This document shows, in pieces, positions 20,563 through 46,620 of a stretch of DNA of 46,620 nt (position 1 is the stretch's first letter; the number at the start of each line of letters is the position of its first letter). The stretch is from assembly GCA_003696105.1 (NCBI GenBank), contig RFGE01000326.1, forward strand, positions 1 through 46,620. The letters are read 5' to 3'. The notes under the pieces are model-generated. The model did not search any database and had not been told where the DNA came from. It saw only the letters and a program-made list of their open reading frames with translations. The DNA comes from Deltaproteobacteria bacterium. Its GTDB lineage: Bacteria > Myxococcota_A > Polyangia > Haliangiales > J016. The translations under genes and the position numbers were made by a program.

Positions 20563-21830
20563 CGTCGCCTGCGCTCGCGCGGAGCCACTGCGAGCAGGAG
20601 GGCGCAGACTACCAGCGCCGCGGCCGGCGCGCCAGCGCCGCCGCTGGTGCATCCGCAGCCGCCCTCCGGCGCGACGTCGCCGCCGCCGTCCGGCGTCGGC
20701 CCGGCGTCCGGATCCGAGCCGGCGTCCGGCGTCGCGGTCGCGTCCGGCTCCGGTCCGGCGTCGGGTAGCGGACCGGCGTCCGGCGTCGGGCAACCGGTGA
20801 CCGGCGCCAGGCCGATCGAGTTGAACGTCACCACCGACGGCTGGACCTGGCGGCACTGGGTCTTGGTGACGTAGCCCGGCTTCGACGCCGTGACGCACGC
20901 GAGCCGCGGCGTGAGGTTCGGAAACGAGTAGCGGCCGTCGGGGCCGGTCACCTGGCGCTGGCCGTCGTCGAGTTCGACCGCGACGCCGTCGAGTTCGGCG
21001 CCTTCGTTGAGGATGTCGCACTCGCGCACGATGCCGAACAGTTCGCCGGGGGGCAGGCTGCCGAATCGGATCGCGAGGTGGTTCGCGACCGGCCGCTCGA
21101 CGCCGTCCGACGGCGACGACACCAGGCCGCCCTCGGCGTCGATGACCAGCGCCGACGATGCGCCGCCGTCGAGCAACAGCGCGTCGTGCGCGCCCAGGCC
21201 CTCGAGGAACGCGCCGAGTTCGGCTGCGGTCATCCCCGCGGATCCGGTCTGCCAGCCGTCGACGACCGCGAGCCACATCCGCTTGCGGTCGACCGACAGG
21301 GCTACGGCGGTCCGCGGCGCGCGAATGCACGGCATCGCGATCAGGTCGTCGCAGTCGAACGAGCTTTGCTGGATGCCGGCGCGCACGATCATCGGCCGGC
21401 CGCTCACCACGCCGATCGTGCCCACCGGCAGCGCCATCGCGTCGACGACCTCCTCCGGGGGCGAGATGGACGCGCCGTTTTCGTCTGCGTTGCGGTCGAA
21501 GCGAAAGAACCCGCTGCGCGCGTCGTCCGCCGTGCCGGTCCACACGGTGCCGCCCCCCATCGCGAGTCCGGCCGGCTGGAAATCGACCGGGGAGAACGCG
21601 TCGCCGTTGACGACGATCTGCAGGTCGTTGGCGACGGCGAAGTCGCTCGGTCGGGCGCCGCGCTGGCCCGGTTCGGTGGCCACGAGGTGGAGTTCCTTGG
21701 AGGACAGGTCGATCGCGACCACGTGGACGCGCGCGCCGGCGACGTCGTCGAAATACACCGAGTAGTCCACGCCCGGGTACGGCGCGCTCGATGACACGAG
21801 CGCGGCGGCGAGCACGGCCGGGTACAACAC
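20559..21830 (-). CDS. Phosphodiester-glycosidase-like exported protein with MYXO-CTERM-like tail
   Basis: 423 residues, GTG start, with a short hydrophobic N-terminal signal. Residues about 20-265 are a DUF2233/NAGPA-type domain (NGDAFSP, PRTAVALS, LLLDGGASSALVI), related to the enzyme that uncovers mannose-6-phosphate and to bacterial exopolysaccharide phosphodiesterases. A carboxypeptidase-regulatory-like beta domain follows (about 280-350). Six hexapeptide repeats of PxPDAG type come next, and the end is GGCGCTSGG, a hydrophobic helix and RERRRR: the MYXO-CTERM surface-sorting arrangement. Expected at the cell surface, cutting sugar phosphodiesters (inference). It overlaps the sigma54 activator by 4 nt and follows the PEGA gene by 18 nt. 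Confidence 0.8.
20682..20789 (-). repeat. 18-bp coding repeat (PxPDAG)x6
   Basis: Inside the MYXO-CTERM protein gene, six hexapeptides follow without gap: PTPDAG, PLPDAG, PEPDAT, ATPDAG, SDPDAG, PTPDGG. DNA copies differ at several positions. They form a flexible wall- or membrane-spanning spacer. Confidence 0.85.
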
Positions 21831-44496: not shown

Positions 44497-46502
<2,006 letters not shown>

Positions 46503-46508
46503 CGCCGA

Positions 46509-46620
46509 TCAGCGAGCGCGGCGTTCGGCCGGCCGGTGGCGGGCGGCGCGGCGCTTGGCGGCGGCGCGGCGCTTGGCGGCGGCGCGGCGCTTGGCGGCGG
46601 CGCGGCGCTTGGCGGCGGCG
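46509..46620 (-). CDS. 3' end of a gene coding a basic AKRRAA-repeat tail (partial)
   Basis: On the minus strand the frame is open from the right window edge to TGA at 46511-46509, about 36 residues. It reads AKRRAA repeated, then RHRPAERRAR and stop. Basic Ala/Lys/Arg hexapeptides resemble tails of histone H1-like or other nucleic-acid-binding proteins; the body of the protein lies outside the window, so its identity is open. A sensible stop and a coherent basic frame make this strand the coding one. It ends 6 bases from the convergent glycosyltransferase gene. Confidence 0.6.
   Translation of the reverse strand, partial: AAAKRRAAAKRRAAAKRRAAAKRRAARHRPAERRAR
46543..46620. repeat. 18-bp tandem repeat
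   Basis: Four identical copies of GCGGCGCGGCGCTTGGCG (46543-46560, 46561-46578, 46579-46596, 46597-46614) and the start of a fifth continue past the edge. No differences between copies, so recent expansion or gene-conversion-like slippage is likely. Its length is unknown because it is cut off. Confidence 0.95.

Follow-up and report, generated by a model that had tools for sequence, protein, structure and literature searches.

The right-hand end of contig C326 raises a simple question: does the run of identical units with which this contig breaks off belong to the end of a gene and, if so, what kind of protein would that gene encode? The window (the whole stretch of DNA analysed here, 46,620 nucleotides) is the whole of C326, one of the 381 contigs that make up a draft genome, probably myxobacterial, of 5.34 Mb and 98% completeness. 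Its right edge is the contig end, and the array, which the preliminary description had reported as cut by the window edge, is therefore cut there by an assembly break.

46542..46620, no strand: exact tandem array of an 18-bp unit, four units and 7 bases (Tandem Repeats Finder, period scan, contig end)

The exact 18-bp period spans 79 bp, enough for four full units and another 7 bases, in agreement with the four identical copies and partial fifth first described. Of the limits then given to the repeat, 46509-46620, the right one stands, while the left one does not, as 46509 belongs to the stop codon of the minus-strand frame discussed below and the array begins at 46542. As the array is cut at the contig end, the copies counted may fall short of its true length. 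Tandem Repeats Finder places it at 46537-46620, with 4.6 copies and a 98% match. The run of matching bases at period 18 is 61 bp long in the array; elsewhere in the window the longest run for periods 4 to 40 reaches 17 bp, and none of 20 Markov-simulated windows went beyond 16 bp. The array is far beyond simulated chance, and the repeat is real.

46509..46619, minus strand: 3' part of a putative gene, (AAAKRR)4 AARHRPAERRAR stop (open frame; no start in the window)
45060..46502, plus strand: PMT_2-type glycosyltransferase (Pfam PMT_2, 1.7e-11), the 480-residue C-terminal stretch used as query, with its stop; the start lies upstream

Read on the minus strand from 46619 to 46512, this end of the contig gives AAAKRRAAAKRRAAAKRRAAAKRRAARHRPAERRAR, that is (AAAKRR)4 followed by AARHRPAERRAR and a stop at 46511-46509, which lies 6 bp from the stop of the convergent PMT-like glycosyltransferase gene; as had been pointed out before, the frame has no start codon in the window. 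If this frame is the one translated, it would specify tandem K/R/A-rich repeats of high net positive charge, with 4 K, 13 R, 1 E and no D in 36 residues (17/36 K or R) and a charge of about +3 for every six residues of the (AAAKRR)n tail. All six frames are in fact open through 46512-46619 and, with a G+C content of 90% in the array, the open frame is accordingly weak evidence. Codon use was tried as proof of the frame and dropped, since scores of synonymous codons trained on four ordinary genes of the same genome favour the plus-strand AALGGG frame (+15.3 bits, the best of the six) over the minus AAAKRR frame (-4.5 bits), with the other minus frame, RRRQAP, at +12.8 bits. Repetition inflates such scores about fourfold, a few codons being counted roughly four times, and for this reason no frame is settled by them. 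With codon use trained on two other K/A-rich tail pieces of the genome, the AAAKRR frame, the only one rescored in this way, reached +4.0 bits; its GC3 minus GC2 is 0.94 minus 0.83. The placement of its stop and a period divisible by three agree with a coding role, and the minus frame is, in our judgement, the likelier of the frames, if unproven. The earlier claim that the repeat codes for a basic hexapeptide on the minus strand thus holds to the extent that the frame does read (AAAKRR)4, but codon use fails to single that frame out.

The chance of three further units with identical codons is 3e-6 under ordinary codon use and 5e-4 under the codon use of the two K/A tail pieces, and both figures uphold the original view that such identity implies recent duplication. 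Duplication by slippage or recombination is the simple explanation for the identical units, as an array that had grown by replication slippage or unequal recombination would repeat its codons exactly. Given growth by slippage, copy number may well vary between strains, which makes the array on C326 a candidate for length variation of this kind. The repeat probably also broke the assembly, and the N-terminal part of the protein would for that reason be missing from C326.

The product, if made, would be a small protein ending in a tandem (AAAKRR)n tail, and such a tail would most likely bind DNA or RNA non-specifically, lysine and arginine contacting the phosphates, by analogy with histone H1-like tails. 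"Histone H1-like", the label attached to it at the outset, is best taken as a statement about composition: the strongly basic make-up stands if the minus frame is used, but the 36 residues had no match in Pfam, PDB or NCBIfam. The HC2 profile (PF07382), in particular, gave no Pfam match to them at E up to 10, a weak test with so short a query. Hc2 of Chlamydia trachomatis and BpH1 of Bordetella have basic regions in which the number of repeats varies, and Hc2 is reported to bind DNA (PMC2848022). Hc2 and Hc2-like proteins (BpH1, and those of Burkholderia and others) are basic proteins whose size varies through in-frame lysine-rich repeats, and in this they resemble the AAAKRR tail; their repeats, however, are lysine-rich pentamers or 36-residue elements, whereas here the unit is an arginine-rich hexamer. 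AlgP of Pseudomonas aeruginosa, with its KPAA-repeat tail, and PhaF share with our case a tandem tail at the C-terminus. KPAA peptides of AlgP are reported to bind DNA in vitro and the number of AlgP repeats changes in clinical isolates (PMC9239181). The AlgP unit as given there is a tetrapeptide with proline, a residue absent from the AAAKRR unit, and a putative helical N-terminal domain is described for AlgP, while the C326 gene is known here from its C-terminal part alone. If translated, the AAAKRR tail would work like the basic repeat regions of Hc2 and AlgP. Basic repeat tails are already known in bacteria; the AAAKRR unit is unusual, but its kind is ordinary, and the C326 tail alone gives no reason to see the action of such tails differently.

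The pattern RRAAAKRRAAAKRR, searched for in any codons, was present in the genome of origin only, both among the genomes of the order (1/35) and in a sample of the phylum (1/377). In its form with GC-ending codons, the tail pattern had no exact match in the GTDB-r220 contigs, from which the genome of origin was possibly left out, and was absent from viral contigs. In the collection of papers searched, the strings AKRRAA and KRRAAAKRR were not found, and AAAKRR appeared only in two works titled on other subjects.

If C326 holds just the tail, gene order in relatives may indicate where the remainder lies. The C-terminal stretch of the glycosyltransferase, found in 33 of the 38 genomes searched (own genome included), was our anchor for this comparison. 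In a separate search of genome contigs 35 loci had a match, of which L095 and L096 were dropped as weak, leaving 33. A gene for a small protein lies convergent within 4 kb downstream of the glycosyltransferase in 15/33 loci, and within 1 kb in 10/33, with an S41 peptidase gene next to it on the same strand in 12 of the 15. This protein, which shows a SWNVSG-type C-terminus and, by eye, a signal-peptide-like N-terminus, had no Pfam or NCBIfam match and is conserved and probably secreted. Its C-terminus varies in length and charge. Eighteen of the 33 loci lack the order: 11 of them have less than 2.6 kb of downstream sequence, and the other seven (L084, L085, L086 and L088-L091) have more than 5.7 kb; in L085 and L086 the S41 gene stands alone, with the secreted-protein gene absent downstream. 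The order is, in short, common without being universal. In relatives, the secreted-protein alignment lies between 12 bp and 3.8 kb from the glycosyltransferase stop (distances were taken to alignment ends, not stops), and in five of the ten close relatives it ends 12-124 bp past that stop.

In the own genome the search for the secreted-protein gene gave one copy, on contig C207 (7901-8353, plus strand), which ends SWNVSGVKQ and is preceded by an S41 peptidase gene. C207 breaks off 139 bp beyond the stop of this gene and C326 118 bp beyond that of the glycosyltransferase gene; each such coincidence has a chance of about 1% by simple arithmetic (381 contigs in 5.34 Mb). Based on these short distances and on the gene order in relatives, it is very likely that the ends of C207 and C326 face each other, with the tail gene between them and on the strand of the secreted-protein gene. 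A partner could not be named through a common repeat, in that neither a 24-mer of the array, allowing a single mismatch, nor the 36 residues of the tail, at E up to 1, matched any contig of the own genome but C326; C207, in fact, stops short of the repeat, and the gap is not closed. The only ATG open to the end of C207, at C207:8472, begins ATG CGA CGC GAG GTT CGG CGC (MRREVRR) and has GAGG 7 nt upstream; in another frame, a TTG likewise stays open to the end. We tentatively regard C207:8472 as the start of the tail gene, bearing in mind that, with the gap between C207 and the repeat unclosed, MRREVRR may not belong to this gene. Simple scans showed no promoter-like or terminator-like site at the end of C207 or of the window. 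That the tail might be the C-terminus of the secreted protein itself was also considered and rejected, as the C207 copy is complete and ends in GVKQ and a stop; in one relative (L070) the C-terminus of the secreted protein does reach the glycosyltransferase stop.

Our best reading, with a probability of roughly 55%, is that a small, lineage-specific minus-strand gene sits between the glycosyltransferase gene of C326 and the secreted-protein gene of C207, and that the array forms its 3' end and encodes a slippage-grown, H1/AlgP-like nucleic-acid-binding tail. The stronger proposal, that the whole protein is a protamine-like R/K/A peptide (MRREVRR ... (AAAKRR)n AARHRPAERRAR) with no folded domain, unique to the lineage, tunable by slippage and condensing the nucleoid, seems to us unlikely. 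Among relatives, the highest K+R fraction in C-termini beside the glycosyltransferase (last 30 residues, 29 loci) was 0.27 versus 17/36 here, although this count passed through a coding filter (GC3 minus GC2 above 0.25), which would have excluded the AAAKRR frame too, and is thus weak evidence of absence. When minus-strand frames of at least 45 residues starting within 700 bp of the glycosyltransferase stop were listed unfiltered in 24 loci, the long ones being viewed in part, no tandem K/R/A tail was seen directly beside the glycosyltransferase. The nearest K/A-rich extension among these loci, in L044, lies 547 bp past the stop and forms the C-terminus of a protein that we take to be a peroxiredoxin from features of its sequence.

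46536..46619, plus strand: open frame from a GTG, MAGGAALGGGAALGGG..., running off the contig (open frame, codon score)

Next to this reading we place, as an improbable one, a gene on the opposite strand that would start at GTG 46536, right after the glycosyltransferase, and in which the array would encode a Gly/Ala/Leu-rich (AALGGG)n stretch near the N-terminus. Its frame is the one that ordinary codon use prefers, and a plus-strand gene of one family, presumably YkgJ-like judging from its CxxC motifs, does lie directly 3' of the glycosyltransferase in 6 of the 32 loci examined. The stretch, however, has no ATG and, by eye, no clear ribosome site before the GTG, and the codon score draws on a single unit that enters the count about four times; furthermore, the AALGGG frame shows no visible likeness to the N-terminus of that family, which the own genome matches only weakly (E 0.011, on C137). 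Less probable still, and behind this, comes the possibility that the array is the tail of a larger protein with another job (a ribosomal or RNA-processing protein, or an enzyme with a basic extension) and that the gap holds a long gene. The upper range of the distances seen in relatives would leave space for one, and the L044 protein offers an example of such an extension, but the 139 and 118 bp by which C207 and C326 outrun their anchor genes fit a short gap; a long unique gene might moreover have been assembled into a separate contig, yet the repeat occurs on C326 only (short contigs were possibly omitted from the draft genome).

Slightly less credit goes to a minisatellite, GC-rich and untranslated, in the space between convergent genes. 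In its favour are the base composition and the six open frames; against it are the period, a multiple of three, for which there was one chance in three, and the 12-124 bp spacing in five of the ten close relatives, which leaves little room for satellites there. Finally, it is very improbable that the copies are an artefact produced by a loop in the assembly graph. Assembly graphs do loop at repeats, and the array ends exactly where the contig ends; a loop, however, needs a truly periodic stretch, so that the copy number alone would be in doubt, and the 79 bp of the array are shorter than a typical short read.

The gene that we propose at the end of C326 may have a counterpart elsewhere in the same genome. 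The HC2 profile, at E up to 1, gave sub-cut-off matches at the very ends of contigs C363 and C7 and two on C297, and the C326 tail was absent among them. This profile matched 36/38 genomes at E up to 1, over its cut-off in 6 only, and 4/14 control genomes, none above cut-off; with matches so broad and mostly below the cut-off, controls included, we read it here as a detector of composition. On C363 (3-383, minus strand) a domain of about 70 residues is followed by TAAKK repeats that run off the contig, and C7 (1-159, plus strand) starts inside a TAAKK tail, which ends in AAAKKAAAKRKRRN and a stop. Of 19 relatives, 9 have the genes neighbouring these two pieces on either side of the orthologous gene, with order and strand conserved, and for the remaining 10 the C7-side gene was not found within the flank examined; on the strength of this order C363 and C7 very probably hold the two halves of a single gene, broken at the tail.

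The C363-type family occurs in 32/38 genomes searched, own genome included, and K/A-rich tails were present in all 20 of its loci that were read; in two loci, that of the own genome and that of G001, a contig end cuts the tail. In Pfam the family had a sub-cut-off match only (DUF4884, 14.5 bits, cut-off 30), and in NCBIfam none. In the own genome its domain was matched once, on C363 (E 3.2e-48), and not on C326 or C207, which would each hold only part of the tail gene. Like the C326 case, the C363 protein is small and has a K/R/A tail running off the contig, here after a conserved domain, but its units are of the TAAKK or PAKK type rather than AAAKRR. The C7 tail contains GCC GCC GCC AAG CGC, five codons with which the 18-bp unit also opens. 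Either contig as the other half of the AAAKRR gene was rejected, given their TAAKK units and the gene order that pairs them with each other.

More broadly, small proteins with basic tails built of repeats can drop out of draft genomes, as their own repeats end the contigs. The present genome holds two likely cases of genes broken at the tail, on C326 and on C363/C7, which calls for caution in surveys of bacterial nucleoid proteins.

Weaker DNA matches to the array numbered 38 in the own genome, the window itself excluded, and our reading of them covered five of those at or near a contig end (C184, C271, C96, C309 and C274); C313 has another match near an end. Translated at the contig end, none of the five reads as AAAKRR, and they were discarded as carriers of the tail. 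On C184 (1320-1596, plus strand), a frame that looks lipoprotein-like by eye carries GAPDAA/PPPDAA repeats and is cut by the contig end; this is another coding-like repeat, in one frame, in that position. Within the window, a degenerate G+C-rich tandem array with periods of 18 to 54 occupies 20675-20791 and reaches a Tandem Repeats Finder score of up to 149.
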